From Allolobophora icterica (Eukaryota > Annelida > Clitellata > Crassiclitellata > Lumbricidae): a stretch of 64,000 nt of DNA. Numbering within the stretch: the first letter of the stretch is position 1; every line of letters starts with the position of its first letter. The notes beneath the pieces are model-generated. The model was not told where the DNA came from and made no database searches. It worked only from the letters and a program-made list of their open reading frames with translations. Below, in pieces: positions 10,021 through 62,050 of this stretch. Both the position numbers and the translations under genes were made by a program. The stretch spans positions 28,123,028 through 28,187,027 of the forward strand of contig OY744608.1 in assembly GCA_963556255.1 (NCBI GenBank), read 5' to 3'.

Positions 10021-10024
10021 TCTG
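10007..10024 (-). promoter_or_regulatory. Candidate 5' UTR splice acceptor of GPCR
   Basis: On the minus strand a pyrimidine-rich TTGTCTTTTAGTTCAG lies immediately before the receptor ATG and fits a 3' splice site. The promoter and a non-coding first exon would then lie further right. Confidence 0.45.
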
Positions 10025-10029
10025 AACTA

Positions 10030-32208: not shown

Positions 32209-32536
32209 TAGGATTGAATTAATTTGATAATAAGGTTCATTTCCCTAGGTAAGCTTAGTGAACAGAAGCAACTATTAGCAAATGAATTTAGAGGAAATTT
32301 TGAAGCATTGCTTACATTGCACACAAGATAATGAAAAGTTCCGTATTATAAAACGTTTAGATTTGTTCACAAAATGTTATAATAGTATTGCACATGTAAA
32401 CACATTATAATAACAAAATAGTTACAATGAATTTATTTTTATCATGAATTTCTTTTAAACGTTAAAAAGATGGTGGTGAGAAGACTTTGATTTGCTTTCA
32501 GTTACAGGTAGAGACAACAGTTGCCGTCTGGAATGG

Positions 32537-32701
32537 TTAACTGTTGACAACAGGAACTGCGAGTGGAGATTTTGTTGCAGAGTCCACGTGAGGGGATGAA
32601 GCAGTCAATGCTGCTGCTGGGTACATTGGGACGTCATCGGAAGCTGGATCATCATGCACCTCAAAATTATGCTGACCATTAGTTCCCTCCAGGTTCCCCA
32701 T
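32537..32701 (-). CDS. DCLK-like: DCLK-like exon 14: last coding exon
   Basis: Acceptor TGATTCAG|ATGGGG. Encodes a 54-residue acidic/Ser-Pro tail (VHDDPASDDVPMYPAAAL ... SPLAVPVVNS) ending in TAA. Phase fits exon 13. No domain recognised. Confidence 0.8.
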   Translation of the reverse strand: MGNLEGTNGQHNFEVHDDPASDDVPMYPAAALTASSPHVDSATKSPLAVPVVNS

Positions 32702-35700
32702 CTGAATCAACAAAACAAAGATCACATATAGTTGCTCTTAAAATTTATGAAACATGATCAACACCATCATCACTATCTCTCTCTTCCTCCTACACATCCT
32801 CATCTCATACCCTCCTTTTTCTCTCAGGATATCAGAAGCATATTTGTCACTTGCCACATACCGTATATTTTTTAATTTCAACCCGTCATTGCATATGACC
32901 CAACAGCTTGGCTACTGTGCATTTGCTCTTCTAAATCGGTGGTGATTAAGCTGATTTCCCAAAGGCAGCTTTTGTGTGGTGTTGAGAAATGCTGGCAATA
33001 ATGCAAAGCTAAAGTTACAGTAGACATAAACTTTATTATTATTATTATTATTATGATCACCAAATTTATGGCATGATGTCAGAACATCAACTAGCCATCT
33101 GAGCTAACTGTATCTCTGTATCTACATTTGTGAGGGCAGCAGAGATTGCACATGTCCTAAGCGAAGACACACTAACCAACTGGGTTGCGTCAGTGTCTAT
33201 ACCCTATTGCTATTGGCTATAAGCCCCTCACACTTTAGTAAGGGTGTTGAGCCTGCCAAATAAAAATTGATCTAACATCTTATTTCTCAAAAGCAGTCTG
33301 GGAAAACTAGCAATGGTTGACAAGCTAAACGAAGGTATGGATCAAAGCTCATCTAGTCCTCTGGAAGAACCTCCTGGAAACTGGAAAAAAGTGAATAGTA
33401 GCTTCCATGTACAACTGCTGAAACTTGAAATGTGGTTGTGGTAAGCATAATCATAATCTCCAAACATCTAAGGCACCAATCGAAGGCCAAGCACATGACA
33501 CCAGCCTATTCACAAGTGCTGGACAATTGTGAGTAAGGAACTTGTCCAAGGTCACTACACAGTGGCTTGAAGTAGATTCGAACCTGCAACCCTCCGCTTA
33601 CAAGACACAGAACATTCCGCTACACCACAGCGTCACCTGGCGAATAAGCTGGTCTTCCAAAGTAGTCAGGTGTGGTAGACTTGTAAGGCCCTTGTGCTAA
33701 AACTCTGCAGGATATTTATCAACTAGGAAATTTAAATTGTTCAAGGTTGGCAATGCAGGGCGACTCTTGTCGTAAAGAATGTGGGCAGTTGCTTGTATAT
33801 AACCAGGTGGCTCTTGTTTGCAAAGAAGAATTTGAATGGCTGCTTACATATTGCCATCTGCCGACTTGGATGTGACACTAGTATAAGTTATCTGAATGTC
33901 CAGATAGGGTCTGATCTCAGTAGCGTGATTAAATTTGTCAGGTTGTGCATGTGACCTGCTGCCTTTTTTGAGGTAGAATAACTTGTGGCATAACATTTAA
34001 CAATCCACTCTTGATATTGTTTTTAATATTATTATACTATTCATTATATTATAATACAATATAGAGTGAGATTATTATATTACTATTATTATTTATTATT
34101 TTTTATTATTGTTATCATTGCTAGTATAGTATAGTAAATGAATAAAATAGTGTAGTAAATGAATAAAATGCCAAACAAGACACTGGCTGCGGTTAATAAA
34201 GAAAAGCCGTGGTTGGCCCTCATTTTAAAATTCAGAAAATTCTGCCAACTTACACCGATGATTGCTGCAAAGATGCGTCTGCATTTGTCCATTGGTCCAG
34301 TCAGCTTAAGAATATTAGACGCAACGGTCGGCTGAAGGTTAAAATTGTTCTGTTCGTTCTCCTAAATGATAAACAAACAAGTTATATGCCTTTCGAATAA
34401 CAATGGAAGTTAACCACTACATGATACATAATACAGATGTATATGCATTTTAGGAAAGACATGAAAAACTAAACATATTGTCTCATGCAGCCATGACTTT
34501 GGGCTAAGGGTTTATCTCAACACACAGACCACTACAACTGGTCTTCTAAGCCTGCTGAAACATCACAAACATAAACTCCAGTCTAATATCAACTGCTGCC
34601 TTTCGATGAAAGGTTCTTATAAGATAGATTATTGAACAGAGTTTATGGATTGGGGTTGCTCAACAGTGTAGTGGATGGTGTGCTGAACTGTCAATCTAGA
34701 GGTCAGAGGTTCAAATCCCTGCCCGGGCAGAAATTTGGTTCAAGATTTCTGCTCCATCTGTACCCCCTAGCCAACTCAGCTATAATGAGTATGCTGTCAG
34801 TGGGAAGATGAGATGGCCAGGGAGAGGACTGGCCACCCGCCCTCACATGCTGAGGCTAAGAAAATGAAGTTGCCATACTTCCAGTGGCGTAGCTAGGGGG
34901 GACAGGGGGGGACATGTGTCCCCGGGCGCCAAGGGAAGGGGGCGCCAAAATGAGGGTTAAGATAAATAATTTTACTCTTACTTTTGATGCAGTTTTAACT
35001 AATTTATCACAAATGAATGTATAAGATTTAATTTTAGCGCCCCAAATATATCCAATTATGTCCTCATTACTTACAAATAAGTTCTTAGGTATGATTTTGG
35101 CGCCCCATTGAGCACTAAGGGGAAACATGCATGTACTGTCTGTATTTTTCATATTTTATTTCATTAAAAAACTTAAAATTTCCATTCGATTATGTGGAAA
35201 ATGTGAAATAGTAAAACGGGGGGGGGGAAGGGGGCGCCAAATTCATAGTTCGTCCCCGGGCGCAAAATATCCTAGCTACGCCACTGCATACTTCATACCC
35301 TAGCCTCTCAGTCTAGCTTACGAGACTGCTCTTCTTATATGGATTAATAGTATTTATAATAGTACTTCCAATGTTCCTACTATATATTTAAGCTAACACA
35401 CCTCATTCCATACTCTAAAATTTATCCCCAAACAAGAATATTCATAACTGAATTCTTGCATACATTAATTCTGAGAAAACTCACAGACAGCCACGGGTGA
35501 TCCAGGACATCAGTAGCAGTGCTACGAATGGTGACGTCTTCTTCCAACATGAAAGCAATAAGATCCTAAAAGCAGTAACTGACATACATGAGGTTTAGAA
35601 ACAATGATGATTAGCAGACCTTGACAATCAAATTGTATGAGAAAATCTCTAGAAATTTGAACAGCATTTTGCTGGGTGAGGTCACATAGCAGCCGAGTGT

Positions 35701-38700
35701 TTATACTGGAACCCACAATCACTTTGTTTCGAGTTTGTGGCAACAACTGATATTGGCAGTTGACTATTTATACCTAAACAGCCATACAGTTTTCCAAATG
35801 CTTCGACATCCTGTTTTCAGTCAAAAACAACTCATACAAATTTTACATTTTTAAACTATAACTAAGTTCATTTTACTTCAAACTATTTAGATTTTGCCAT
35901 TATTAGTGAATTTCTTGATTTCTTAATTTTGTCTGCAGCAACTGAGTTCCGAACATAAATTTCTTGTATTTAATAAATTCATTACCTTTGCTGAATCAGA
36001 AATGCCATCCCATGCTGGGCTTGGGAAGTCCAGAGGTCCTGACTTGATTCTGATAAGAAGTTCTTCTTCGGTTGACCTGCGGATATTTTACAACATGACT
36101 TACTATTATTGGTAAATATGAAACATCTCCTTCAAAATAAAGATGTAGTGCAAAAATGCAACCTCCAAACTGTTTGTAAAATATTCTAACTATTCAATTA
36201 CATCCAGTCTGAAACAGTGTGACATTGTGGTCTATCAGTTTTTGGCATCAATGAGCAAAAGCAATATCAGACTTCATGAAATGATGCTTTATACTACGAG
36301 TTATGGCCTGTTCTCATTAGACATTGGATATACTTTCAATCATACAGCAACAACCATACGCTCACAAGAATCAAATTATACACCTGACCACCCTAGGGAT
36401 TCCTATTTGAGCCAGATATTACTTTTATATAATAACAATAACAATAGTGTTTATTGACAAGCTCAATGACAACCACAGTAACATTTAAACATATGATAGT
36501 AAAGTTATTAAGATCCTATAGAACACACGTCTTGGCAGCCTGTTGGACGCCCACTCATTTTACACCTGCCTCCTAGGGAGTGGAAGGCTGAGTTTACCTA
36601 TAGGAGCTCATGGGTATTCAACCGTGTCTTTCAAGATTTTGTGTTTTTTGAGCAAGAGTTTTACTATTCTTCTATCCCCCTCCCAAACAGCTAGCCTAAA
36701 AAAGCAAGCAACTATCAACAGAGGTAGAAGGTAAAAAGCTATTTATGTCCTGAGCACTGATTAATTTTGCTACAACTGTTTAGCATAGCCATAATGCTCA
36801 CACCACTTGAATATCAGTAACTGAAGTGGTCTTGCAGATGAAATAGTAATTTAATTTGATTTCCACTTTTGATTTCTGGACTGACCTTGTCCTACTTTAT
36901 TGTGAGTGGCCTGGAAATTTGACCTGAGTACATCCCTGACTTCCAGCATTGCCCGAGTGCTGACTGACTGCATAAAGCTCAATATTCTGGGCTTCTGGCC
37001 AATCACTTTTGTTTCAGTCCAGCTCTCATTTGGCCAAAAATTGCTTGATTTTGATGTATTACCTCGGACAATGACAGTAATTCTTGAGAAACTATTTATA
37101 AGTGCTGGCTTAGATTCTAAACCTCTGTTTCTCATGAAACAGTTAGGCCATGCAGTTTAATGCAGATTCTATAATTGAATGCACTTGGAAAATAAAATCA
37201 GATTAGTTAACTCAAATAAATATCTTTTTAGACTTGTTTTTATATCAAAGGGTTGTTATATTTGTGGCCATGCATCACATCAAACAGATGCCTCATATGT
37301 AACAAGGCATTGCATAGAACTGACCAAGCCAGGTCTTCGCCAGATGTAGAAAGTAGTAAGAGACATACCCGGTGTATGGCAGATATCCACAGAGCATGAT
37401 GTAGCCCACAACACCAGCGGACCAAACATCCACCTTTGTACTATACCTAGAACACATTCAGAATGAGGCTTTAACCTAACCATTCAATCAATCAATCAAT
37501 CATAAAATTTATATAGCGCCTCTTCAAGAGTTCTACTCAGAGGCGCTCCCGAGCCAGGCCTGATCATAGAGAAAAGTCTTCAATAGGGTGTAGAAGGAAG
37601 ACGAGGGTGTACGAGGAGATAGGCGAAGGAAAGATGGCAAGTCATTCCACACTGTTGGACCAACAACAGAAAATGCTCGACGCTGCATTGTAGCAGTGCG
37701 GGCAAATGGAACCAGAAAGTCACCCCGAGTAGAGGAACGAAGAGCTGAGCGACCCGTAAAGGAGGAAGAGAGAGTAAAGATGGAGCATAAGTAGCGAGGA
37801 GCTGTGCCCAAGACGCTTTGCCAGACAAGAGAGCAGAGCCGATACAGGATACGCTGCCGAAGAGGGAGCCAGTGTAGAGTATGATACATGTAGGAGGATA
37901 CGCTACCATAGCGAGGAATGGAACCAACAAGGCGAGCCGCAGACCGTAAGACCCTCTCAAGAGTGGACAACCGGACTTGAGGAAGACCAATGTAAAGGGA
38001 AGAACAGTAGTCTAGACGAGAGCAAACGAAGGCGTGGATAAGAGTAGAAGCAGCAGATGTTGAGAGAGAGCGAGCAACGACCCTAAGCTGACGGAGATGG
38101 TAAAAGCAGGAGCGAGACAAGGAGGAAAGGTGCTTAGTAAACGTTAATTCCTGATCAATGATGACACCGAGGTCTCGAACGGAGGTAGAGAATGACATTA
38201 GAGGGAATTCAGCTGCGAAAGAGTTCAGATCAAGTTTTGCCAGCTGTTGGCGGGTACCCAGCCATATGAACTGGGTCTTAAGAGGATTAAGTCTCAGGCG
38301 ATTGGAAGAAAGCCAGGCAGACAGAGTGTCAGTTGCGCGAGACATCACGCGAACAGCACTCAGAGCATCCCTTGCAGAGCAATGCAAGTAAGATTGGAGA
38401 TCATCAGCGTAAGAGTGGCTAGACAGAGCAATAGCAGCAAGAACAGATTCAAGGTCAGCAGTAAAGAGGATATAAAGAAGAGGGCCAAGCACGGAACCCT
38501 GGGGGAGGCCAACAGGTACAGGAATCCAAGGGGAACGCGAGGAGTGGAAGACAGTAGACGAAGAGCGGTCAGATAGGTATGAGGAAAGCCACTGTAGAGG
38601 TAAGTTGGAGATACCAAAGGAGGTAGAAAGGCGACGCAGTAGAAGATCATGATCTACCGTGTCGAAGGCTGCACTTACATCGTAAAGTGCAAGAAGAGTA

Positions 38701-41700
38701 AGTTGAGAGCGATCAATGGCACTGTAAACATCATTAAGCAGACTAAGTAGAAGGGTCTCAGTAGAGTGTCCCTTACGGAATCCCGACTGACGGCAGGGTA
38801 GAAGGTTATTAGAGTCTAGGTAACTCAATAACTGAGAAGCTACAAGTTTCTCAATTAGTTTAGAAATAAAACTGACATTAGATATTGGCCTATAATTCGA
38901 GGGGCTAGAGGGATCCAGACCCATCTGTTTCAGAGTAGGCATGATGATAGAACATTTCTGTGAAGCCGGTAAGATGCCATCACGTAGAGAAGAATTACAG
39001 AGGATCGTCAGGAACGGAAGGAGGGTTTCGATTTGCTCCTGGACGAGAAATGTCGGGAGAGGATCCAATTCCGACGACTTGGCAGGCGAGGCGAGGATGA
39101 GGCGACGCAGCTCAGCCTCAGTGACCGGAGCAAGGGTGGAGAAAGAGAGCTTCAGTTCAATACTTGTCGATCTATAAATTTAATGCATTATAAGTCTAAG
39201 ATAGATTACACTGATAGCTTCGCTACTGAGCAAGGCCGCAGGAAAATACACTACAATTAAGATTTTTTTCTAGCATATTCAGTCATGTAGAAATTATAAA
39301 ATGCTAATAACCGTGATTAAGCATACAAAACCTAATTTGCTGTGGCTCATGAGTATGAATACTAGAAACTGGAGCCAACAATTGTACAGATACATGTATA
39401 TTTCATCTTCAGTACTACAACTATAGTTACTATACAGCACTGATTCTAACTCAATTGTACTCCATATAGATCAGAATTTTATTATAACAGAAACACTTTC
39501 TCGATAAGGTAGGCTATCCATGTTGTTGGTTTTGGCTTGGTTTGGTTTAGACTCTGCCCCAACAGCAACAAATGAAACCCATATGAAAATATCATCATCT
39601 GGGCTTAAGCTATTTCACAAATGATGCTGGTGGTGATTACCAACATCATATTCATCATAAAGAACAAGGCTCACCGTTTTTCTGAAAGCATCTCTGGTGC
39701 CATGTAGCTGAGTTCTCCACAAGGAGTACTTAAAGGTGCCACGATCTCAACGGCCATACTAAAGTCACTCAACTTCAAATGTTTACGACCACTTGATTCC
39801 AAAGAAACCTACAGTTTGATGCATTCATACATATTTAAAATATTAATAACAATAAAATATCAATATGTAAAAGGTTCAAAATCAATATGCAAAAAACTTA
39901 ACAATACATTTAAGAGATTCAGTCAGTTGGCATCAGTCAGCCAAGTTGGTCAGTCAACTTTTGTCTGTCAATCACGTGCAGTGACCAATCCACGTTAGAC
40001 TCTTTACTTTCCAATTCCTATAGCAGATATTCTGTGTTTTTGCACCTAATATACCACTTTTATCATTTGTGTAACACTTTAACAAGCGTGTACTAAAAGT
40101 GACCACTTGATTCCACTGTGCATTTCACTAGCTTTACTCAGTGTTTAAAAGTGACTGGGAAAGCTCATCATTAACGTGTTAAAGCTTTACATAGCTGTTT
40201 GTACATCAATAACTTGGCTATCAAGCAAATCCTAGAAACAGTTCAACATGATATTGACTCTACCAGAATGCTCTCAGGTCTGATGTTGCGGTGGACAATG
40301 TTCATGGAATGAAGAAAGTTGATGGCAAAGCATAGCTGGAAGAGAAGATGACTTGCATCAACCTCCGAATAATCAGCATAGGATACAATTGACTCGAGCA
40401 GGTCTCTGCCCTAAGATCAAACACTTGAAATTTAGTAAAACTAACACAAATAGTTTACTGACAAAACTAATAACACTATTCATCGAGAATGCATTAGTGA
40501 TAAATGACATACGATTACCAAAGTTATAGATATCATCTGATAATATTTTAATGTTTCATAATTTAGAATTTTCATGAATTCTAGTTCAGTTTTATTTCCA
40601 GGTGGTAGTGTCAGTATTAAAGAATTACAAATGTAACAGGTTTTGAATGTAAGTAATAAATGCTGTAAAATGAAAGTGACTCCCTAAAATTATTTAATTA
40701 ACTCATACAGATTAATTTTGATAAAACTGATTAAACAGAAGTCTGGCCGAATTATTATAAATCACATATTTAGTCACAAATCATTTTCAAAGTGTCCTCA
40801 TCTGGCATATAAATGATGGTCTGGTGGCATGGTATTAGAATTATGACCATTCATTATTATAAACATTACCTATTGTTAGCCATCGTCTATTGCTATATTA
40901 AAGCCTCTAAATTAAAATTTATACTTACTTTATAGTTAATAAGTTATCTGAATTATTTTAATATAATTCTACAGCATCTTTTTTGGGTTAAACAGTAGAT
41001 CACTATTCAAGTAAGAAACAACAGTCTCCACCTTAGGCAGTTCCAAGACCATGAACAACGAAGTAGGTGTGTCCAAATCATCAAGAAGGTGAATTATATT
41101 CTGGTGTTTCATGCGCTTCATCAAGGTGAGTTCTGAGTAGGCTAGGCACTCTTTCTCTTTACTCATTTTGGTCTTGTTGTAAACCTTGAATGCCACGGAA
41201 CTCTGGTTCTTTCTGATAACACACATGCATTGAGCAGCTCTCAATAGTTTTAAGCTTTAAGCATGAGATAATTAAAGGCAGCATATCATACTGTAAATTC
41301 TATATGTTATACTGTAGACCAGTATAATGCACCAGATCTTAAATTGTAAATCTCATACTATGTGGACATCAACAGCGACCCAGAAAACCACATTTAACAG
41401 TTAGCCCACACTGTGCCATTCGTGGCAACAGCTATGGGTCGAATGAATGTGGCCGTCAACAGCAGAACAGACATGGCAGAAAACCTCTTTATGCATGCAC
41501 AGAACACTTACTTTGTACCTGAACTTTGATCACCTGAACTTCCCATTCAGAAAAAGATGCTGTGCATTTCACTAGCTTTACTCAGTGTTTATGCACTCAA
41601 TGTATTTTTCAAAAACAAAGAAAAGAGACAATCTTCTGTTAATAATATGTGAAGCAATTCGAAAAAATACGAACATTTTAAAATGAAAGGGGTTTATACT

Positions 41701-44700
41701 GGAAAATTACTACATCAACACACAACAACAACATATAGCATGGCCAATTGTGAAGTGCCTTAGGAGCTGGTAAATTGACTGAGCTTCATTCATTCACTGA
41801 TTTTCAAACATATCATCCTTATCGAACCACATCATCACAGATTTCAGTGGTCAAACAAGACAGTAAATAGTTTTGGCCAAAGTTGGTGTGGACCATCTAG
41901 ACATCATAACTCATGTAACCTGCCCAATCTTTGGATCTTCAATTTGGAACCATTTCTGACTTACCGGGTACCTGCCTATCGATTTTGTTTTGATTCAGTG
42001 CCTGTGAATAAGAAGCTGGTTCCTTCAAATTCGTTTTTGGGTGCTGTAGAAATCTTGAGATTACGATAACAGCGTTTATGATACGTTGTGATTTGACACT
42101 CAACCACCACATCTAGAACTCTGATGTCGAAATTCATAAGCAGACCAAGTGAAGCACAAGACTGACATTTGCTGGACAGGATGCAAGACAGTCTAGTGTT
42201 TAGTGTGCTAGACTGTCAGTCAGAACGTCAAGAATTCAAATTCCCACACGAGGACAGAAAACTGTTTCAAGCTTTCAGCTCCACTTGTGCCCCGAAGCAA
42301 ACTCAGCTAGAATGAGTACAGTCACTGTACACTGTCGGTGTGGATGGTCAGATGGCAAGAGAGAGGGCTGGCCATCTGCCCTCATATGCCCAGCTATCCA
42401 CCCTCATATGCCCAGCCGTCCACCCTCATATGCCCAGGCTAAGAAAACTGAGGTCACTAACACTTCATACCCATGCCTGCCTCTCAGATGTCTCAAGTGT
42501 CTGTTCTTATTGATTTTCTCATTTGTTACTGTGGAGTGTAAAATCCATGCTAGGACAGAAAGATATATCACGGTTGCTGTTCTGCTATCACCTCAGCTAT
42601 AACAAGAGTATAAAGACTGTAAGTGTGAAGATTGGAAGGAAAAGGAGAAGGCTTGCCACTCACTCACGAGGCTAAGAAAACAAATTCACTAATATTTCAT
42701 ACACATGGCAGCTTCTTTGTGCTAACTTAAGAAGCCACTTTTCTTCTTTGTCTTTCATGTGCTTTTTGGAACCAAATGACTCCTTACTGTTGCTAAGATT
42801 AGAATATGCTACACAACGTTAAACAATTCACAGAATTCTGCCTCAAAGTCTTCATTTTCAAGAATTAATGCTACTCACATGTCAACACCAGTATGCAGAC
42901 TAACATAGCCGCAACGACCAACAGCCTTCCCAACATGGTACTTGGTTAGCAAAACTAGTGGAATTCTTTGGTCATTATCTAAAAGCAAAACAAATAAAGC
43001 AAAATGCCTTAACTTAATTTTACTACGGTACGTTATAATTGACTGGACCTATACTACACTAATTAGTAATTATCACATCAAACAGCTTTGATGTGACTAA
43101 TGATGGATCATCAGCCAGTGGGTGTTAGGCACTCAATGGTGATGTAAAATCAATACAGAGAGTGAATAATGTATATGGAATGGCTCAAACTTGGCAGACT
43201 CCAGCAGAGAAATATTACTATAAAAGGTTCTTATTGAACAATATTGTTCAATAATGCCCCAAGGGTGGGACAAAAAATTAGAGGTTTTTAACCTGATATG
43301 GCTTATCTTTCCTATATTAGACTATTATTAATTATGGAAAGGTAGAAGTAGTAATAGAAGCAGCAGTAGTTGCAGTCAGGCCCGCATTAAGGGGGTGCTA
43401 AGGGTGCTGCAGACCCAGGCCCGCAGTTTTGAGGGGCCCGCGTTTTCGAAAGTACATTAAAACTTTCATTGTACTTGTAATTCGTCCCCGTGCTGATGGC
43501 TATATATAGGTAATCACAGCACCCAGGCATGCACTAGCCTTAATGTGGCCCTGGTAGCAGTGATAGTAGCAGTAGCAGTAGAGTGTAGCTAACATTAAAA
43601 GTTGAATAATGAATATCCATTCTGCAACAACATTGTTTGTTTGGCATTTACACTATATACTCAAGACCTCCATCACTGCCAATGCTATATCTCTAACATG
43701 GTTTTTTACATTCATCTGTTCATTACAGGTAATAATACTCACTCTTGTCAATGCGTGTTCCAGATGGGACAGTCTGAAAAGTCACAAAACATCAAATGCA
43801 GTTTATATTTTCAGAATTCAGTTTTCAAAGATCACAAAAGATGTCAAGTATAAACCAATGAATACAATTTAGCAAACATTTGACCAACAATGCATCTAAA
43901 TACTCAACATCTGCATTCACTTGATGTGATCCCCACCTGACCATATCACTTCTTCCATACACAAACTGACCTTTGAGTTCTTCTCTGAGGAGACTTTGCC
44001 AGCTTGAGTGTCCTGGTTGGCAGCAGGCAGCGTTTCTAAACCCTTGGCTGAAGATGAGAAGTCTGGTTCTTCATGAACTGGGGCAGGGGATGGTGGCTTT
44101 GACTGATCTATGATTCTGCGTATCACTGGACGCTGGACAGAATGGATCTTCTGCTGCAGTTCAGCGGAAGTGGAAGCAGGAGCAACCGAAGAAGAGGAAG
44201 CAGGAGCAACCGAAGAAGAGGAAGCAGGAGCAACCAAAGAAGAGGAAGCAGGAGCAACCGAAGAAGAGTAAGCAGGAGCAACCGAAGAAGAGTAAGCAGG
44301 AGCAACCGAAGAAGAGGAAGCAGGAGCAACCGAAGAAGAGGAAGCAGGAGCAACCGAAGAAAAGGAAGCAGGAGCAACCGAAGAAAAGGAAGCAGGAGCA
44401 ACTGAAGAAGAGGAAGCAGGAGCAACCGAAGAAGAGGAATTCTGCCAGTGTTCACCTGTTCCTTTTCCCATGCTGTTCGTCTGCGAGTTTAGACCTACAT
44501 CAACAGCAAAGTAATACAAGTCATTAAAGTCAAAGAAAGTAGAATTTCTGGAAAAACTGTGAAAATTCAGTTGTGAACAATTACAGGCATATTCCAAAAG
44601 GCTTGCCGCACATTCCTCCCGTCCTTGATATCATTCTGATATACATGTAGCTGCATCCAGAAGACAGTGCAGTCAGCTTGGATGATGTTGGTGATGCTCC

Positions 44701-47700
44701 CATATTATCTTCTCATCTCAAATTCAGATGCCAGTGTTGTTAACTTCATAAACTTGTCTAATCCACAATACAATACAATACAATACAACTAAAAATTTAT
44801 AGCGCGCTTCAACAAGACAAGTCTTGCACAGAAGCGTGTTGCGCTACACTTCTAGTCATAGTACAATGTGAATAGGTGAGTTTTTAATTTAGATTTGAAT
44901 TGTGCTACAGATGCACATTGACTTGTTTTGTATTGTCTCTGAAAGCAGTTGCTATGGCAGGCAGTTAAAAGATTCTGCAACACTTACACAGATGCAATAC
45001 ACTGCCATGCTCTTCAATGCACTCCTCCCTTGCTGATCCGTTCTTAGGTTTTCAATATGTTTACTAAAACTACTGAGCTGTTGCCTGTTAAACACTTCCA
45101 ACATATCCAGAAATCCTAAAGAGCAATGTTTAGCTACAGCAATTTATCTGCATATTTAAGTCACCCATAATAACAATTTCAGAACAAGAGGCAATCAAAT
45201 ATTCAAGTAACCTAGTGACTGAAATTCACACAGAAATTCAGTCAGCGATAAGGATGGTGCTATACTTGCGTGTTGATAGAAATGAGTATAGCCCAGGATC
45301 TAAAATGACTTATCTGCTGGAATACTAATTCATTGGGAACTAGGGCAATAACTCCCTGGGCAATAATCCCTTGCCAATAATCACCCAGCCAAAAGCCCTT
45401 CCAACCAATAAGCCCTAGAAATATAACTCATTGTAACAGTCACTAATACAGTATGGATTCTTACAATATTTTACGTAATTGAAAGTTAAAATTTCTTTGA
45501 GTTGGTCTACCAGTATATGTAATTTTGAAGGCTAATTTCATTTCTCTTAGTTACAGCTATCAAAAAGAGCCAAATCGTGTTTGGTGAATAGCTTAATGAT
45601 AAAAGAAAGCAGCCTTGAAGCTATGAACCTGTGATATGTAATAACAGTAATTGTAAAAAATTTTAATTAGCAACTTGCAGACATCAGTAACAGAACTGAG
45701 TAATACTACAAATATATTAATAAGAACTCACGCATTTACTAAAATCAATGTCAAACCAATTAGGGCCTACAATTTCATAACACAAAGTTCATTATCAACT
45801 ACAACATAATTGTATTCACGAGATTGCTAATTTCACATTAGTATAACGTGCTGTACACAGTCCAGCTTCACAAACAGGTAACCCTCAAACTTCCATATAC
45901 CAGCTAACCTAGAATAATTTTGCTTAATTGATATAACTTGCAACATCAATACCAAGATCAAAATATAACTAGCAAGATCTGCACACAATCTAATACCAAT
46001 ATGGGACCAATGCCAAGTGGTAATTAAGTCAACCTGTGGGTTAATCATATGCTAATTAAGCTTCTTGAACATATTCAGTTTAACTAACATATTTACAGCT
46101 TCAAAGAATCTCGTAGAATGATGGCTAGATTCTTACTTGAAGCGCTAGGCAATATCTTCGACAGACAACCATCAGGAGAGCGAGACTGAGACTTTGACTT
46201 CCCTCTTCTCACCTGCGATGTAGTTCTAACAGTAGCTGAGCGCGCGTTTCGCTGGGAAGATCCACTCGCAAACTTGGTTTCTACATTACACAACAGATAT
46301 TTCATATAAAACTATCAAGAAAGGTTCATTAAGCAGGCAGCAACTGCTTTGGCAATGAAAGGAATTTGTTGTGTTTTCAATTGATTTCATAAAAATAAGA
46401 ACTCTGACACAATGAACCAATAATTACAGTTCGTTAATCGCCTATATAAGTTGGTTCTATTAATGTAAAGCCACATTACATAACCAAAATTTCATATTAA
46501 ACTATCAATAAAGGTTAATTAAGCACAGCAAGTTCTTTGCTCCATAATGTTGAAAAACAGAAATATGTTGCATTATCAGTTGATTTCATGAAAATAAGTT
46601 AAAGTTAAAGTTCTTTAATCGCCTACAGAAGTGTTGATGGTGAGGAGACCACGTGGTAGTGGAAACTTTTCACTTGCATCTGCCCATTGTTTAATCATGC
46701 AATATCGTGGTATCCGCGTAGCATATGCATATCTGCTAGAGCTGTGTAAGGGCCAACTGCTGACTATAAGAATATGCCTGTAAGGAAGAGTATTGATTGC
46801 CAGGATCAAAACAAGTGGACCACTATTACATATTTAGAAGATAAAGTGGTTATGGTAATAGTAAACTTATAAAAGAATCAGCAACCTACTGAAGACTAAT
46901 TCAACTGAGGTTACTCAAATAATAAATTACTGCTATAGCAGTGCAGAGAGCAAGCATCAAAGCATCGCAAGACGCTTGATCAAGGAAATAAATTATTAAC
47001 AGGACTACCTACCAACATCATTCAGTTTCAGTTCTGACAGGGAGAATTTCTCCGAACCAAACGCCACAAAAATCGAATCATCTTGGAAGAAGTCTCTTAG
47101 AGAAAGGACCTAAAGCAGCGAAATATAGGTTTTAAGCAGTGAGAAAGATAATAAATAATAAAAGACTATACGCATGAATAGACATTAAGTCAAAACTGCA
47201 TTAACTAGTTTGAAGCTATTACCAGTAAAGCTATTCTGGATGTGTCACATATACTTCAAAGTAACAGGCAAGTAATAAACTTGTATATGGATTACTGCAA
47301 CGCATGTCTCATCGATAAATTGCTAAAAGAGACTTACACAAAGTATACATATAGTTAAAAATTCTGAGCATTTCAGCAATTCAGACCCAGAGTAGTAATG
47401 GAAAGCCCAAGCGCCTGCATATTGTTCCAATGGTAATTGTAATCTGACATTTATAAAGCACCACTTACAGAATTTCATCAGTGGCACTTTCGACCCGAAC
47501 CAGTGAAGCCAATCATGTACTGATTATACTGGTTACCTATCTAGCAACAAATTCAGTTTCAAATCTGTTTTACAGTTCACAAGACATTGCATTTAAATCA
47601 GCCGACATATCTCCACTCCTGCTATAACCCTTATTCCACTAACTATTATGATCGATCATTGGACATATTTTGACCCTTTATGTATCGAGCACCTGTGCAG

Positions 47701-48949
47701 TGGTGGGCTTTTAGTGGCTGGATCAAGGCTTTTGGATACACCGAGTTCTGTTGCCTCTCTCGTGCCATTCAGAACTACGCTCAACACTCACGTGTTTTAA
47801 TTTCCTTACCCACTGTAGCATACATCTGGTTCTCTGACATATTGGTTCTCTAGTGGATTATGACATTGACTGCTGTTCACTTGAAGTGACCATCGATTGA
47901 TTTTGTTTACATTATGATAATGATACATTACATTCATATATGGTAACGGATATGTAGTTTGACTGAAGAGCCTTTAATAGTAAGAGTATGAATTACCAGC
48001 CAGGAACTAGGTTTTTGTAGATATGCAAAAGTACAGAAGTTGAAGGTGCATATAACGCATGTCACAGATGGAAGAATAGCTAGTTGCCTCCAACACACTC
48101 TGTTTTTTATCTTTCAGCGAAGCAAAGAAAAATCAGAAAGAGACATCTTAACGGATGACTTAGTTAAGTAATAGTTAGTGGTAATATTTGGAGAAGCAGT
48201 CTTACAGGGCTATATAGTTAAGTAATAGTTAGTGGTAACATTTGCTAATACTGAACCTGTTTTCCAGTGATAGTGTAAAGTTGTCGAATGGTTCCAGTTT
48301 CCATGTTCACCGACTCAGCTAGATCGGTCATCACCTGGTCAAATGATCGAGCTGTGCGCTTGTTCAGCAACATTCTAGCCATGTTTCTTGGTCTTGGACC
48401 AGCTCGGATGGTGTAAATCATCCTAGGCTCAATGTAGTTTCGATCAATGTCATTGAAGTCACCAAATGACTTTGCAATTCCTGTCTTGCTCTCGTCCCCA
48501 TTTCGGAAGTTCATTTTCCAGTTCATTGGCTTCGTTATCTTAGAATAATCCATCCGGCGAAACACAGGCGTCGAGGCACAGACATAGGCATACCCATCTT
48601 GCAGCTGGTCGAGGGATCGCACTTGTTCTCCTTTCAAAGTAAATATGTAGCGAACACCCTTATGCAGAACTGAGGGGTCACAGAGGGTTGTCTTGTTCAG
48701 CTCAGCCAGAAGTGAGTCAAATGTTCGAAAGCGTTCAACTGTAATGGCAAGCATGATGCCTTTGAAGAAGGGGTCACCGTTACGAAACAGGCGAACCTTG
48801 CTTGCCTTCATTTGGGCTGCGGCTGTCATCACACTTGGACGGCTTCCCGATGAACTTCGACTGAGCACATGGCTGGCTGCCATTGGTGAAATGGGAGGTG
48901 AAGAGATAACAGACACTGGAGCTGAGTTTTCCAACTCTGTCAATTGCAT
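32537..48949 (-). CDS. DCLK-like: Doublecortin-like pseudokinase gene (14 coding exons)
   Basis: Fourteen minus-strand exons join without breaking phase into 2574 nt (857 residues). Order: N-terminal Ser-rich segment; DCX1 (about 51-132); DCX2 (about 176-258); long Ser/Arg and Ser-Val-Ala-Pro linker (about 263-496); kinase-like domain (about 508-755); short tail. The DCX domains should bind microtubules as in DCX/DCLK/ZYG-8. The kinase part is CAMK-like (HPW end motif, ENEQ tail as in DCLK) but key residues are altered. The Gly loop reads VGRCGYV, HRD is HRN (N632), the metal-binding Asn is S637, and DFG is DFS (654-656). VAFK Lys539, helix-C Glu557 and the DFS Asp654 remain. I infer a catalytically dead or weak pseudokinase with a scaffold role. 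The start is the first Met of exon 1; upstream non-coding exons are likely but not identified. Confidence 0.9.
33455..33650 (-). repeat. tRNA-derived SINE (family 1) in intron 13
   Basis: Reverse-strand relative of the SINE at 924: A-box-like GTGGTGTAGCGGAATG, B box GGTTCGAATC (33574-33584 on the plus strand), then GACCTTGGACAAGTTCCTTACTCACAATTG, parallel to GACCTTGGGCAAGTCCTTCACTCGCAATTG in the first copy. Confidence 0.75.
34254..34361 (-). CDS. DCLK-like: DCLK-like exon 13: C-terminal extension
   Basis: Acceptor CATTTAG|GAGAA, donor CGGT|GTAAGT. Encodes ENEQNNFNLQPTVASNILKL and on to MDKCRRIFAAIIG. It begins with ENE as in the DCLK autoinhibitory tail. Phase 0 both sides. Confidence 0.85.
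34655..35340 (+). repeat. tRNA-derived SINE (family 2) interrupted by a MITE
   Basis: Head with B box GGTTCAAATCC (34709-34719), then CAACTCAGCTATAATGAGTA and GGCCACCCGCCCTCACATGC, continuing after the MITE at 35295 with ATACCCTAGCCTCTCAG. A relative at 42185-42480 reads through uninterrupted (ACTTCATACCCATGCCTGCCTCTCAG), which shows where the MITE landed. Confidence 0.7.
34882..35286. mobile_element. hAT-type MITE, CAGTGGCGTAGCTAGG ends
   Basis: Terminal repeats CAGTGGCGTAGCTAGG and CCTAGCTACGCCACTG are perfect, with an exact duplication CATACTTC (34874-34881 and 35287-35294). The interior has GGGGGCGCCAA motifs at both ends. It lies in intron 12 of the doublecortin gene, inside an older SINE. 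Confidence 0.95.
35485..35565 (-). CDS. DCLK-like: DCLK-like exon 12: end of kinase domain
   Basis: Acceptor TTTTAG|GATCT, donor TGTCT|GTGAGT. Encodes DLIAFMLEEDVTIRSTATDV then LDHPWLS, including the HPW motif that closes CAMK kinase domains. The subdomain XI Arg is present (TIRSTA). Confidence 0.9.
35986..36076 (-). CDS. DCLK-like: DCLK-like exon 11: C-lobe
   Basis: Acceptor CCGCAG|GTCAA, donor AAAG|GTAATG. Encodes STEEELLIRIKSGPLDFPSP then AWDGISDSAK, matching the DCLK pattern VDFPSPYWDNVSDSAK. Confidence 0.9.
37369..37446 (-). CDS. DCLK-like: DCLK-like exon 10: C-lobe
   Basis: Acceptor TTCTAG|GTATA, donor CCGG|GTATGT. Encodes YSTKVDVWSAGVVGYIMLCG, the conserved DxWxxGV segment of the C-lobe. 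A LINE occupies the upstream intron. Confidence 0.9.
37480..39170 (-). mobile_element. CR1/L2-like LINE in intron 9
   Basis: 5'-truncated non-LTR retrotransposon in the same orientation as the host gene. The 511-residue frame at 37533-39068 is the reverse transcriptase: NYRPISNVSFISKLIEKL, AFDTVDHDLLL, GLPQGSVLGPLLY, SYADDLQSY (catalytic YADD), then the C-terminal HTLHWLPLRQRI and WNDLPSFLR. No endonuclease is present. The 3' tail is TGATTGATTGATTG (plus strand 37482-37500). The frame is intact to the truncation, so the copy is fairly young. Its 3' end (GGGAGCGCCTCTGAGTAG) is shared with the family 1 SINE. Confidence 0.92.
39675..39808 (-). CDS. DCLK-like: DCLK-like exon 9: DFS and activation segment
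   Basis: Acceptor CTGTAG|GTTTC, donor AACG|GTGAGC. Encodes HLKLSDFSMAVEI (DFG Gly replaced by Ser) and CGELSYMAPEML, so the APE motif is kept. Confidence 0.9.
40264..40410 (-). CDS. DCLK-like: DCLK-like exon 8: HRN catalytic loop
   Basis: Acceptor TCTTAG|GGCAG, donor TCTG|GTAGAG, 49 codons, phase 0 both sides. Ends NIVHRNIRPESIL where active DCLKs have NIVHRDIKPENLL. The catalytic Asp is Asn (codon at 40285-40287), Lys is Arg and the metal-binding Asn is Ser. Confidence 0.92.
41032..41212 (-). CDS. DCLK-like: DCLK-like exon 7: N-lobe
   Basis: Acceptor TTATCAG|AAAG, donor CTAAG|GTGGAG. Encodes SSVAFKVYNKTKMSKEK with the VAxK lysine (K539), helix-C SELTLMKRMKHQNI (E557) and the hinge FMVLELPK. 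Confidence 0.9.
42185..42480 (+). repeat. tRNA-derived SINE (family 2) in intron 6
   Basis: Same order as the 34.66-kb copy: tRNA-like head, CAAACTCAGCTAGAATGAGTA, GGCTGGCCATCTGCCCTCATATGC, then GGCTAAGAAAACTGAGG. The phrase CCACCCTCATATGCCCAG is repeated three times, a local expansion. A 3' fragment follows at about 42590-42710. Confidence 0.7.
42879..42978 (-). CDS. DCLK-like: DCLK-like exon 6: degenerate glycine loop
   Basis: Acceptor CTTTTAG|ATAAT, donor ACAT|GTGAGT. Encodes LLTKYHVGKAVGRCGYVSLH, aligned to the ITERYKVGRxIGxGxFxVV start of DCLK kinases. The second Gly of GxGxxG is Cys and the spacing is altered. Confidence 0.82.
43377..43553. mobile_element. hAT-type MITE, CAGGCCCGCATTAAGG ends
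   Basis: Ends CAGGCCCGCATTAAGG and CCTTAATGTGGCCCTG. Flanks GTTGCAGT (43369-43376) and GTAGCAGT (43554-43561), 7 of 8. It lies in intron 5 of the doublecortin gene. Confidence 0.8.
43743..43773 (-). CDS. DCLK-like: DCLK-like exon 5: 31-nt microexon
   Basis: Acceptor TTTTCAG|ACTG, donor AAGA|GTGAGT. Encodes TVPSGTRIDK, leading into the kinase domain. Chosen because its phases (0 in, 1 out) link exons 4 and 6; the short length makes it less certain than the others. Confidence 0.7.
43971..44494 (-). CDS. DCLK-like: DCLK-like exon 4: SSSSVAPA repeat linker
   Basis: Acceptor GATGTAG|GTCT, donor AAAG|GTCAGT, 524 nt, phase 1 in and 0 out. Contains 11 tandem 8-residue units of the form SSSSVAPA, followed by STSAELQQKIH and a Pro/Ser segment (SKPPSPAPVHEEPDF) ending SSEKNSK. 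Likely intrinsically disordered. Confidence 0.85.
44167..44437 (-). repeat. 24-bp coding minisatellite
   Basis: Eleven 24-bp units (AGGAGCAACCGAAGAAGAGGAAGC on the plus strand) encode SSSSVAPA with variants SF, Y and L. In-frame repeat number probably varies between individuals (inference). Confidence 0.9.
44765..45000 (-). mobile_element. CR1/L2-like LINE 3' fragment in intron 3
   Basis: ACAATACAATACAATACAAC tail (minus TTGTA units), TTTATAGCGCGCTTCAACAAGACAAG, then GTGTTGCGCTACACTTC, matching the 18.9-kb LINE (ACAAGTCTTGCACGAGAGCGCATTGCGCTACATTCC). 3' end only. Confidence 0.65.
46137..46280 (-). CDS. DCLK-like: DCLK-like exon 3: Ser/Arg linker
   Basis: Acceptor AATGTAG|AAACC, donor CAA|GTAAGA. 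Encodes a basic Ser-rich linker (RRGKSKSQSRSPDG) like the phosphorylated linker of DCLKs. Phases 1 in and 1 out are consistent with both neighbours. Confidence 0.85.
47013..47109 (-). CDS. DCLK-like: DCLK-like exon 2: end of DCX2
   Basis: Acceptor TTTAG|GTCC, donor TTG|GTAGGT. Encodes VLSLRDFFQDDSIFVAFGSE then KFSLSELKLNDV, the DCX2 ending (compare FFGDDDxFIACGPEKF in DCLK). Phase 0 in, phase 1 out. Confidence 0.9.
47440..47830 (+). mobile_element. Old CR1/L2-like LINE remnant in intron 1
   Basis: Broken plus-strand frames carry the C-terminal LINE pattern (YWLP... QIQFQICF early; ASLVPFRTTLNTHVF at the end). It is heavily decayed and in the opposite orientation to the gene. Confidence 0.45.
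48257..48949 (-). CDS. DCLK-like: DCLK-like exon 1: DCX1 and most of DCX2
   Basis: 231 codons from ATG to the donor AAACAG|GTTCAG. DCX1 begins KVRLFRNGDPFFKG and ends YVCAS. DCX2 begins MIYTIRAGPRPRNMAR and is cut after TITGKQ, the usual position in this family. Phase 0 out. A near-identical duplicate of its last part lies at 54721-54965. Confidence 0.92.
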
Positions 48950-49027: not shown

Positions 49028-50183
49028 TCACCTTGTCACCTTGTCACCTTGTGCTGTCAGCTCGTGAAGCTCTAGCGATCGTCCTGGTGAACACACTCCA
49101 CCGTCTCCTATTCGATGACAAGTCTCTCAATTCCGCCAAATTCATGCCAGTTACATCTTGTATCTCATCCATCCATCTCCTCCTTGGGCGACCCAGTCTT
49201 CTCCTCCCCTCACCGCACGCCAGCATCATTTCCTTCTCCAGACCATCAGATCGCATAACATGTCCAAAGAACCTTAGCTTCATTCTTGTCGCAGTTTGTT
49301 TTAACGACTCTTCATTCTCAACTCCAATCTCCTCTCGTATTGATTCGTTCGTTCTTTTCTCAGTCCAAGATATTCTCAGCATCTTCCTCCATATCCACAT
49401 TTCACAAGCGTTAACCTTATTTTCCATGTTCTTTGTCATTGTCCACGTCTCGCAACCGTACAGTACCGTAGGAAAGATTAGTGCTCTCACGAGCCTTTTT
49501 TTGGTTTCTATGCTCACATGTTTGTCTTTCCATATCTTTTCCAGTCCGGTCATTGCAGCTTTCCCTATAGCAATCCTTCGTTTTATTTCTGGATCACACT
49601 TTCCCTCCTTTCCAACCAGTGATCCTAGGAATGTGAAGCTTTCTACCACCTCTATTTCCTCTCCGTCTATCTCAAAACTATCCCAATCTGCTGTTGTCAT
49701 GACCTTTGTCTTCTTTATGTTGAAGTATAAACCAGCTTTTTCACTTTCTCTCCTGACCCTTCTTATCAGTTCTGCCAGATCCTCTTTTCTTTTTGCCATT
49801 AATGTTGTGTCATCTGCGTATCTAAGGTTATTCAGTGTCTTTCCAGCAATTTTTACTCCCTCAATTGCCCCCTCCAGTTCTGCCTTTCTCATTATTCTTT
49901 CAGCATATAGATTAAACAGGAATGGAGACAAGATGCATCCCTGCCTCACTCCTTTCTTGATTCTGAAATTGTCAGTGTCTCCGTATTCTGTTCTTATCAC
50001 CGCTATCTGGTCTTCATATAAACCCTTTAGTAACATTATCAGGTGTTTCAGAATTCCCATTTCAAGCAGGGTTTTCCACATTAAATCATGGTTAATGCAG
50101 TCGAATGCCTTGCTATAGTCAATGAAACAGATGTGAACCTCCTGTCCATACTCCCTTTGTCTCTCCATTATCCACCTCATGTT
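49028..50183 (-). mobile_element. RTE-clade LINE, copy A (5'-truncated)
   Basis: 378-residue frame (stop at 49044) covering the 3' half of reverse transcriptase and the C terminus: DYSKAFDCINHDLMW, GVRQGCILSPFLFNL, LRYADDTTLMAK, WRKMLRISWTEKRT, RRRWSVFTRTIARA. It ends in an AAGGTGAC tandem tail (minus strand), as RTE elements do. By eye I noticed only four differences from copy C over this length. It starts 79 bp upstream of the doublecortin start codon. Confidence 0.93.
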
Positions 50184-54615: not shown

Positions 54616-54629
54616 GGTTATTTAGTTAA

Positions 54630-54965
54630 GTAATAGTTAATGGTAACATTTGGAGAACCAAAGTCTTACAGGGCTATATAGTTAAGTAATAGTTAGTGGT
54701 AACATTTGCTAATACTGAACCTGTTTTCCAGTGATAGTGTAAAGTTGTCGAATGGTTCCAGTTTCCATGTTCACCGACTCAGCTAGATCAGTCATCACCT
54801 GGTCAAATGATCGAGCTGTGCGCTTGTTCAGCAACATTCTAGCCATGTTTCTTGGTCTTGGACCAGCTCGGATGGTGTAAATCATCCTAGGCTCAATGTA
54901 GTTTCGATCAATGTCATTGAAGTCACCAAATGACTTTGCAATTCCTGTCTTGCTCTCATCCCCAT
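54630..54965 (-). pseudogene. Duplicated fragment of DCLK-like exon 1 and intron
   Basis: Near-identical to 48165-48501. It contains the DCX2 part of exon 1 (from GDESKTGIAK to the TITGKQ donor at 54721) plus about 90 bp of the adjoining intron. By eye, two base differences occur in the exon part. It breaks off into a CT microsatellite where the exon should continue, so DCX1 and the start codon are missing. It is either a recent segmental duplication or an unmerged haplotype/assembly duplicate. Confidence 0.85.
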
Positions 54966-55120: not shown

Positions 55121-56707
55121 GTCTTTCTATCACCTTGTCACCTTGTGCTGTCAACTCCTGGAGCTCTAGCGATCGTCATGATAAACATTCTCCATTGCTT
55201 CCTATTCGAAGTCAGGTCCCTTAGTTCTTCCAGATTCATGCCAGTTACATCATGAATCTCATCCATCCATTTCTTCCTTGGTCGACCCCGTCTTTTTTTC
55301 CCTCACCACAAGCCAACATCATTTCCTTTTCTAGCCCATCAGATCGCATAACATGACCAAAGAATCCAAGCTTCGATCTTGTCGCCTTTTGTTTTAATGA
55401 CTCTTCATTCTCGACACCAATCTCCACTCGTATTGATTCGTTCGTCCTTTTCTCTGTCCATGATATTCTCAACATCTTTCTCCATATCCACATTTCACAT
55501 GCGTTGACCTTTTTCTCCATGTTCTTTGTCATTGTCCAAGACTCACAACCATACAGAACCGTTGGAAAGACTAGGGCTCTCACGAACCTTTTTTTTGTAT
55601 CTATGCTCACATGCTTGTCCTTCCATATCTTTTCCAGTCCAATCATTGCAGCTTTCCCAAACGCAATCCTTTGTTTTATTTCTGTATCACATTTTCCTTC
55701 TTTTTCAACCAATGATCCCAGGAAAGTGAAGCTTTCTACCACCTCTATTTCTTCTCCGTCAATCTCAAAAGTATCCCATTCTGCTGTTGTCATGACTTTT
55801 GTCTTCTTTATGTTGAAGTATAAGCCATCTTTTTCACTTTCTCTCCTTACCCTTCTTATTAATTCTATCAGCTCATCTTTTCTTTTTGCCATTAGTGTTG
55901 TATCATCCGCATATCTAAGATTGTTCAATGTCCTTCCCGCAATTTTTACTCCCTCTGTTGCCCCTTCCATTTCCGCCATTCTCATTATTCTTTCAGCGTA
56001 TAAGTTAAACAGGAATGGAGACAAAATGCATCCCTGTCTCACCCCTTTCTTGATATTGAATTGATCAGTGTCTCCGTATTCTGTTCTTATCACCGCTATC
56101 TGATCTTCATATAGTCCCCTTAATAGCCATATCAAGTGTTTCGGAATTCCCATCTCAAGTAGGGTTTTCCACATTAAATCGTGGTTAATGCAGTCAAAGA
56201 CCTGGATGGACAACATCAAGGAGGACTTAGGGGAGAAAGGCACCGACTTAGCCGGAATCGGCGAGACAATCAAGAATAGAGAACTTTGGAGAAGTTTCGT
56301 AAAGGCCTCATCGTCAGATCACTGACGGAAGAGAAGAAAGAAGAATGCAGTCAAATGCCTTACTATAATCAATGAAGCAGATGTGCACCTCTTGTCCATA
56401 CTCCCTCTGCCATTCCATTATCCACCTTAGGTTGGCAATATGGTCTCTAGTTCCTCGAGATTTCCTGAAACCAGCCTGGTTTACCGGAAGTTCCCTCTCT
56501 ATTGTGCTTTCCATTCTTTTGTGGATTATTTTCAGTAATATTTTACTAGTGTGTGATATTATTGCTATCGTCCTGTAATTTTCGCATTCCCTCGCGTCGC
56601 CTTTCTTGAATATCGGTATGAAGATTGACTTCTTCCAATCATTCGGCCATTCTCCAGTTGCCCATATTTGATTGCATAATTTTGTTATTGTTTTTATCAT
56701 TGCATCT
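55121..56707 (-). mobile_element. RTE-clade LINE, copy B (older, interrupted)
   Basis: Same family as copies A and C but visibly more diverged. The frame at 55245-56200 has GVRQGCILSPFLFNL and LRYADDTTLMAK. It continues at 56344-56707 with NQIWATGEWPNDWKKSIFIP and VNQAGFRKSRGTRD. A foreign 145-bp insert splits the reverse transcriptase at AFDC. The C terminus is frameshifted (MRFMM). The copy is 5'-truncated near 56707. Confidence 0.9.
56199..56343 (+). mobile_element. LINE 3' scrap nested in RTE copy B
   Basis: 145-bp insert flanked by a 12-bp duplication AATGCAGTCAAA (56187-56198 and 56344-56355; 10-12 bp allowing for the A-rich tail). The plus strand reads MDNIKEDLGEKGTDLAGIGE then WRSFVKASSSDH and a stop, a non-LTR C terminus from a different family, with a GAAGAAGAAA tail. 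Confidence 0.8.
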
Positions 56708-60927: not shown

Positions 60928-60929
60928 GA

Positions 60930-62050
60930 TATCGATATTTATTTTGTTTACACACAAAATAAATATCAACAGACTTTAAATTTCAGATGACAGGTTCAAG
61001 AAACTTTCTCATTTTTGCACTCTTTATAATGTTATGCCAGATATTTATTTTGTCAAAAATATGCCTTAAAAGTGTGCAACAGGAAGAAAAGTAAATAGTA
61101 AGGAAGCCTTTCAGAGTAGTTTCAAAATGTCAGAACCTTATATACATGATTAAAATCAACATGAAATATATGATAATGCTTAACTGACATTTACAGCCCA
61201 TACTGCAGTCAAACTGAGGTGAAAAACCAAGTGAATTTACCTACATCACAATGAATAAACGGAACAGCATCGTCTAGCAAGACACGACAACAGTTGAGCA
61301 TCTGCACATGTTTTTGCAAACGTTCTACCAACACTCAGAGTATAAATTTTACTTTTTTGGACACATAACCTGAGTGAGAAAACTACTTATACACAATAAC
61401 ATCTTCCAGAAAAGCTGCCATTTGTTGTTATGTGTGATGCAACAAAAACATGATGCACAAATATAAAACGTATGGCCTTCTCGCTTTGCACTAAAACTCC
61501 AGTTCTGGAATCGACTGGAAAATGTTCTCCATGGAATTCAATTTAATAGAAACTGACCAATGCCTGTCCTTCTGAACTTTTAAATCTACTTTGGAATTTT
61601 AATAAGATGTTGCAAAACATGCAGCAGAAGTCATGCCATTTGTTGGTATAACAAATAATTGTGCTCAAAACTGGTCTTGCTTTCATGCCGTATAAATACA
61701 GTGCCTATAACTGTTAACATATACATCTTGCCAAGATGGGCACAGCAGATGACGCGATGAAACCCAATCAGTTCAGCTGAAAACAAACTCTGACTGCTGG
61801 TACACTAAGAATACTGAATAAAGACACATAAGGTTGCAACGGGCATCCCACTGCGTAAGTGGAAAGCCGTGCCACCTACCACAGTCAGTCACAAACACTG
61901 GTAGCAGCAAATGCTGAAGCTTCGTTTGTCCACCTAAACCCAGCTCAACGTATCAATTGTTATTGGCAGATCTGCCCATTCGTGCATTGCAGACGTTGCC
62001 GCATTTGGCCAGACTCTAGGTATTTACTACTCGGCAATGTTCACTTTATC
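60930..62050. other. Intergenic, no gene seen
   Basis: A short inverted repeat (ATTTATTTTG...CAAAATAAAT) at 60937-60965 borders the LINE truncation. No gene is supported. Confidence 0.45.

Follow-up and report, generated by a model that had tools for sequence, protein, structure and literature searches.

Does a doublecortin-like gene with an altered catalytic loop represent a kinase in decay, or a protein whose kinase fold has been kept for another use? We addressed this question for a gene on the minus strand of the window, the whole 64,000-nucleotide stretch analyzed here, which is part of contig C7 in an assembly of 1.118 Gb. A sequence-only reading had located the motif HRNIRPES in an exon at 40264..40410 (minus strand) and proposed a doublecortin pseudokinase that retains both DCX domains, and our analysis of the sequence bears out both points. 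The exon is open, is bordered by AG and GT, and has a translation ending in ...NIVHRNIRPESIL, and the codons for N632 (AAC), R634 (AGA), and S637 (AGC) support the altered loop; the following exon reads LSDFSMA, with S656 encoded by AGT. We conclude, with a probability of about 0.68, that the gene encodes a conserved, microtubule-binding pseudokinase of the DCLK type, with two DCX domains and a kept kinase fold that has lost phosphate transfer, and that it is one of three such paralogs. The inactivity, microtubule binding, retained fold, and mode of action of the protein are what we infer from sequence.

We predicted a 14-exon DCLK-type gene at 32537-48949 (minus strand), whose spliced model encodes 857 amino acids with consistent phases and no internal stops, and the residue numbers 632, 637, and 656 given by the earlier reading agree with this model. 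We picked the exon borders as 13 GT donors and 13 AG acceptors. Matches from DCLK relatives (tblastn) cover exons 1, 2, and 7 to 12, and exon 6, without a tblastn match of its own, is covered by PDB and Pfam alignments; exons 3 to 5, 13, and 14 were placed by splice sites, phase, and stop alone. The exons, in order of transcription, are as follows.

48257..48949, minus strand: exon 1, with the start codon, DCX1, and the first half of DCX2 (Pfam DCX; orthologous exon in P0158; tblastn with Patella DCLK1)
47013..47109, minus strand: exon 2, the remainder of DCX2 (AG/GT borders; tblastn to DCLK relatives)
46137..46280, minus strand: exon 3, predicted linker (splice sites and phase only)
43971..44494, minus strand: exon 4, Ser/Ala/Pro linker with an in-frame 24-bp minisatellite (splice sites and phase only; Tandem Repeats Finder)
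43743..43773, minus strand: exon 5, predicted linker (splice sites and phase only)
42879..42978, minus strand: exon 6, start of the kinase N-lobe with the degenerate Gly loop GRCGYVSL (splice model, PDB match, alignment)
41032..41212, minus strand: exon 7, beta3 Lys539 (VAFK) and alphaC Glu557, both retained (splice model, alignment, tblastn)
40264..40410, minus strand: exon 8, catalytic loop HRNIRPES with D632N, K634R, and N637S (AG/GT borders, codons, alignment)
39675..39808, minus strand: exon 9, DFS (S656) in place of DFG, and activation segment CGELSYMAPE (splice model, codons, alignment)
37369..37446, minus strand: exon 10, helix F with Asp690 retained (splice model, alignment, tblastn)
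35986..36076, minus strand: exon 11, C-lobe (splice model, tblastn)
35485..35565, minus strand: exon 12, C-lobe with HPWL (splice model, tblastn)
34254..34361, minus strand: exon 13, start of the C-tail, lacking the TALDK motif (splice sites and phase)
32537..32701, minus strand: exon 14, predicted C-tail and stop codon (splice site, phase, and stop only)

An AATAAA lies at 32437, near predicted exon 14. The minisatellite in exon 4 spans 44167-44439 (∼11 copies of 24 bp) and encodes a Ser/Val/Ala/Pro repeat in frame. Mobile and duplicated sequences also occur within and around the gene, with similarity to other retrotransposon copies starting 87 bp before the ATG.

37533..39179, minus strand: non-LTR retrotransposon open reading frame in intron 9 (RVT_1, 99.8 bits)
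54622..54965, minus strand: partial duplicate comprising the 3' half of exon 1 and ∼97 bp of intron 1, 98% identical to 48160-48501

The partial duplicate is followed by (CT)71 and shows one base difference in the displayed coding part of the alignment; it may be either a tandem duplication or an assembly artifact. Three related non-LTR retrotransposon copies are present on the minus strand (49038-50183, 55130-56195, and 58398-60938), and the first and third are 99.65% identical over 1,146 bp, so recent retrotransposon activity (or assembly duplication) is likely. Elsewhere in the window, we observed an intronless open frame of 365 amino acids with a rhodopsin-type 7tm_1 match (8932-10026, minus strand; 110 bits) and a 51-bp minisatellite of ∼17 copies with long open frames on both strands (62623-63468).

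The N-terminal part of the predicted protein contains two DCX stretches (Pfam, 115 bits) and matches doublecortin in the PDB (200 bits). All 8 of the 8 DCX positions that are invariant in 27 intact-motif relatives are kept, consistent with predicted microtubule binding. The C-tail motif TALDK, a mark that we drew from the alignment rather than from a published definition, occurs in 6 of 7 aligned intact-motif relatives and is absent from the window protein and from P0108, a database relative discussed below. We place less weight on this absence because conservation of the phosphorylatable C-tail threonine was reported to be limited to DCLK1 and DCLK2 of vertebrates (PMC10602587).

The kinase part matches the Pfam Pkinase profile over positions 1 to 263 of 263 (188 bits), and its best PDB match is human DCLK1 (256 bits), followed by CaMK1G (185). 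A pseudokinase lacks one or more canonical catalytic residues; the window protein shows D632N, N637S, and G656S, and in place of the HRD...N and DFG of the DCLK family it reads HRN...S and DFS. The Gly loop is altered as well (GRCGYVSL versus GDGNFAVV). Alignment shows that the beta3 Lys539, alphaC Glu557, the His and Arg of HRD, Asp654 and the Phe of DFG, the Glu of APE, and helix-F Asp690 are retained; with the DFG Asp, beta3 Lys, and alphaC Glu in place, nucleotide binding and weak activity may remain. Of the 52 kinase positions that do not vary among 29 intact-motif rows, 36 are retained and 16 altered. The gene had been described as otherwise intact, which holds for its reading frame, phases, and lack of stops but not for these 16 positions or the Gly loop.

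To place the altered loop among its relatives, we aligned the window protein with 53 DCLK-type proteins, several of which are isoforms or near-duplicates. These came from protein searches, including an alignment search in which 120 of 160 matches were listed, and comprise arthropods, nematodes, cnidarians, sturgeon, the mollusks Patella and Physella, and further records. Excluded from the 53 were P0158, which has no kinase, and P0159, a fusion that reads HRDIKPEN and DFG like the others; the catalytic loop falls in a gap in P0139 and P0140, leaving 51 readable rows. Among the matches listed, 50 of these 51 carry D, K, and N at the catalytic loop, and the sole exception is P0108. Homolog searches with the window kinase returned one DCX-kinase (P0001), and those with the DCX part returned one (P0108).

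The earlier reading had proposed a search of the same genome for a DCLK with HRD and DFG, and our scan recovered four; the active-type paralog that it had invoked is therefore present. It gave 21 DCX and 37 kinase matches, of which we followed 15 and 13, respectively; the DCX matches at C6:8.60, C5:68.45, C8:64.95, C4:65.45, C14:27.84, and C5:56.25 Mb lie outside the count. By our reading, the genome holds at least seven DCX-kinase genes, three dead (the window gene and two others) and four with intact motifs.

C11, 23214149-23229075: two DCX domains, HRDIKPEN, DFG
C6, 56745018-56734534: two DCX domains, HRDIKPEN, DFG
C8, about 11.364-11.374 Mb: DCX-kinase with HRD...N and DFG, from tblastn pieces
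C2, about 44.630-44.648 Mb: DCX-kinase with HRD...N and DFG, from tblastn pieces
C4, 69885015-69895652: HRNIRPDK, intact DFG, Gly loop AQGDFVLV
C4b (contig C4), 62426656-62415604: HRNIKPEN, DFG lost (RLVGLASA), Gly loop without glycine

The catalytic loops at C8 and C2 read HRDVKPEN or HRDLKPEN. All nine exons sought (1, 2, and 6 to 12) were modeled open in C11, C6, C4, and C4b, with phases that agree partly by construction, as the window phases were imposed on the search. In both C4 and C6, exon 6 was placed by hand. The C4 model also requires that exon 6 be followed by a GC-AG intron and exon 7 by a weak donor, which brings in six extra residues. We found the TALDK motif downstream of C6 and C11 and did not find it within 9 kb of C4 exon 12. 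Two further loci carry related parts. The kinase exons of C4 recur at C3:59119049-59124380 (86 to 100% identity per exon), with no DCX match within the 30 kb taken; this recent partial duplicate possibly encodes a stand-alone pseudokinase. At C12:49938323, a diverged two-DCX open frame of 291 amino acids, with no kinase exon in the 30 kb taken, may encode a doublecortin-like protein without a kinase.

The window and C4 kinase domains share only 42.6% identity (115/270). Under a neutral-drift estimate that assumes 0.1 indel per substitution, an open frame permits ∼29 changes since the loss at 95%, equal to 3.7% of kinase sites, or ∼84 with no indels. The observed divergence far exceeds the changes tolerated under neutral drift, suggesting from sequence comparison that the fold of the window kinase may have been kept by selection.

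Trees were built with 28 of the 53 relatives, chosen by hand to thin near-duplicates. Under a mixture model on the combined data with 21 catalytic-motif columns removed, the window gene falls into one clade with C4 and C4b (100/99); on DCX columns alone, the three group with P0158 and P0163 (95/91). Sequencing error or decay of this single copy, the outcomes that would have undone the earlier proposal, are made unlikely by the presence of C4 and C4b, also HRN, in this one clade, and we rejected them as the main reading. The order of splitting conflicts, as the DCX tree joins the window gene with C4 (92/86) and the combined tree joins it with C4b (96/79). The dead paralogs, Patella, Physella, C6, C11, and P0108 fall together in the DCX tree (98/94). 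Based on this grouping with Patella and Physella, in a tree set that holds no annelid or other named spiralian, we call the lineage mollusk-like.

P0158 corresponds to window exon 1 in another source (214/231 amino acids identical, 92.6%) and covers the DCX exon only; its end resembles that of the window frame before splicing, and we therefore dropped the idea of a DCX-only isoform in favor of a genomic exon as the more likely origin. P0163 is the counterpart of C4 exon 1 in another source (224/232 identical, 96.6%). The window gene and C4 are 51.6% identical over DCX positions. Because P0158 and P0163 are each far closer to their own counterparts, the duplication that separated the window gene from C4 predates divergence from the sources of these sequences.

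The three HRN genes and P0108 share Asn at the catalytic Asp and differ at the other motifs: the loop Asn position holds S in the window protein, K in C4, N in C4b, and S in P0108, and the DFG position reads DFS, DFG, lost, and GFH, respectively. With three HRN genes in one clade, loss of the catalytic Asp is most simply older than their split, and the simplest history would be an Asp-to-Asn change first, followed by separate erosion of the remaining motifs in the three paralogs.

P0108 itself appears to be a further dead DCX-kinase. It is 1,181 amino acids long, with two DCX domains, a Pfam kinase match, and the motifs HCNVNMDS and GFH, and it probably derives from a spliced transcript because it runs uninterrupted across the position of the window gene's intron 1. 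It resembles the window protein in its two DCX domains, in Asn at the catalytic Asp, and in Ser at the loop Asn, but is far more eroded (HCNVNMDS, GFH, and loss of APE) and has a long linker. Its structure model, built from an alignment that included active DCLKs, has a mean pLDDT of 57.4 and a pTM of 0.43, with 680 of 1,181 residues below 50. A pLDDT of at least 80 is reached by the DCX domains, by the greater part of both kinase lobes, and by most 10-residue blocks between ∼701 and 990, and part of the activation segment falls below 50. The first structural match of the model is the DCLK1 kinase, weak evidence given the active DCLKs in the alignment.

The position of P0108 shifts among trees. 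Its grouping with the window gene, P0158, and P0163 received 100% in a plain LG+F+G4 DCX tree and 83/75 under the mixture model, changing to 88/83 when C4 was added and to 77/82 when C4b was added; two alternative groupings with Patella and Physella stay acceptable (p-AU, 0.235 and 0.17). When the catalytic columns are removed, the combined tree places the window gene and P0108 apart, also after the addition of C4, and forcing the window gene, C4, and P0108 together gives a p-AU of 0.303 (0.31 for kinase columns alone). In both latest trees, P0108 is sister to the three dead paralogs, though not firmly (77/82, DCX; 45/74, combined). These trees do not establish a single common Asp loss for the window gene and P0108.

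How such a protein might act is suggested by an engineered DCLK1 mutant, D511N, which served to examine what kinase activity does for microtubule binding (PMC8352597, PMC8452690). The DFG Asp of DCLK1 is D533 (PMC10602587), and the HRD and DFG Asp residues are 22 residues apart in both human DCLK1 and the window protein (632 to 654), so D511 is the HRD Asp. D511N was reported to bind microtubules more robustly than the wild type at the lower of the concentrations used (PMC8352597) and to polymerize tubulin, which phosphorylated wild-type DCLK1 does not (PMC8452690). In the DCLK1 C-tail, autophosphorylation keeps the kinase in check and thereby safeguards microtubule binding (PMC8352597). The best reading by analogy is that the window gene is a natural counterpart of D511N, with a pseudokinase domain kept as a binding or regulatory module. 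An ancestor in which HRD had become HRN would have duplicated, and the other catalytic motifs would then have eroded differently in each copy. The window protein would be unable to autophosphorylate its own DCX domains and would escape the self-inhibition by which active DCLK1 comes off microtubules, thus staying bound. Its kinase fold, probably retained for a role other than phosphorylation, could serve as a docking or nucleotide-sensing module.

Instead of standing alone, the window protein could act mainly in trans on the active-type DCLK paralogs as a scaffold or allosteric partner, forming heterodimers with them or competing for substrates or for sites on microtubules. Regulation of active relatives is common among pseudokinases, and intact-motif paralogs coexist in this genome. 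We nevertheless consider this reading unlikely, as purified DCLK1 isoforms were reported to be monomeric (PMC10602587) and wild-type DCLK1 was reported not to trans-phosphorylate D511N (PMC8352597). A duplicate that is turning into a pseudogene would fit the 16 of 52 changed kinase residues, the retrotransposon sequence just upstream of the ATG, and the second element in intron 9, but is very unlikely given the open frame with usable splice sites throughout, the HRN common to three anciently split paralogs, and the conservation of exon 1 in a second source (P0158).

Weak or unconventional catalysis, such as an Asn-tolerant or metal-independent transfer, draws on the retained Lys539, Glu557, and Asp654 and on PSKH2, HER3, and the JAK2 pseudokinase domain, which are described with similar HRD changes (PMC7586955). 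The same review states that HRN usually abolishes catalysis, with exceptions, and cites a paper whose title says that ErbB3 binds ATP and autophosphorylates. We regard this reading as highly improbable because Asn637 and the DFG Gly656 are changed too, the Gly loop is broken, and in DCLK1 the D511N change alone was described as catalytically dead (PMC8452690). A-to-I RNA editing could restore activity in edited tissues, as one change turns AAC into GAC (N to D) and another AGT into GGT (S to G). The DCX tree points to mollusks, which include heavy RNA editors. However, any Asn codon has this property, and S637 (AGC), C519 (TGC), and R634 (AGA) cannot be restored in this way, leaving editing with a negligible chance. 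Deamidation was also set low as an explanation.

Beyond the pseudokinase reading of this one gene, a wider history seems to us about evenly balanced between right and wrong: an ancient, multigene doublecortin pseudokinase family in a mollusk-like lineage, in which the Asp-to-Asn change came first and is the sole motif change shared by the window gene, C4, C4b, and perhaps P0108, the other motifs eroded differently, and the fold was kept as a nonenzymatic switch or tether, freed from DCLK self-inhibition, beside active DCLKs. A D511N-type substitution made by nature in a gene clade, beside intact-motif paralogs in one genome, would make the kinase-independent functions of DCLK and the order of motif loss directly testable. 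The count of at least seven DCX-kinase genes departs from the report of only two DCLK paralogs among the invertebrates sampled in a study of 36 sequences (PMC10602587). We found no description of a DCX pseudokinase in titles and abstracts of the open-access literature (DCLK or doublecortin with pseudokinase), and the main text of one pseudokinase review is without the terms DCLK and doublecortin (PMC7586955).

Among known systems, DCLK1 and ZYG-8 share with the window protein the order of tandem DCX domains, linker, and CAMK-group kinase domain. The likeness to DCLK extends to the best PDB matches (DCLK1 for the kinase, doublecortin and DCLK1 for the DCX part) and to the DCX-tree grouping with Patella and Physella DCLK. 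Unlike DCLK1/2-type proteins, the window protein has lost the HRD Asp, the loop Asn, the DFG Gly, and the second Gly of the Gly loop, and it has no TALDK. PSKH2 is similar in its change from HRD to HRN, its CAMK-group membership, and its close canonical relative, PSKH1. It differs in that it is not known to have DCX domains. Unlike the window protein, PSKH2 also keeps KPEN and DFG (PMC7586955). The DCLK1 D511N mutant has the same Asp-to-Asn change at the same residue, with the DCX domains retained; the change in the window gene differs in being natural, inherited, common to a gene clade, and accompanied by more catalytic losses.
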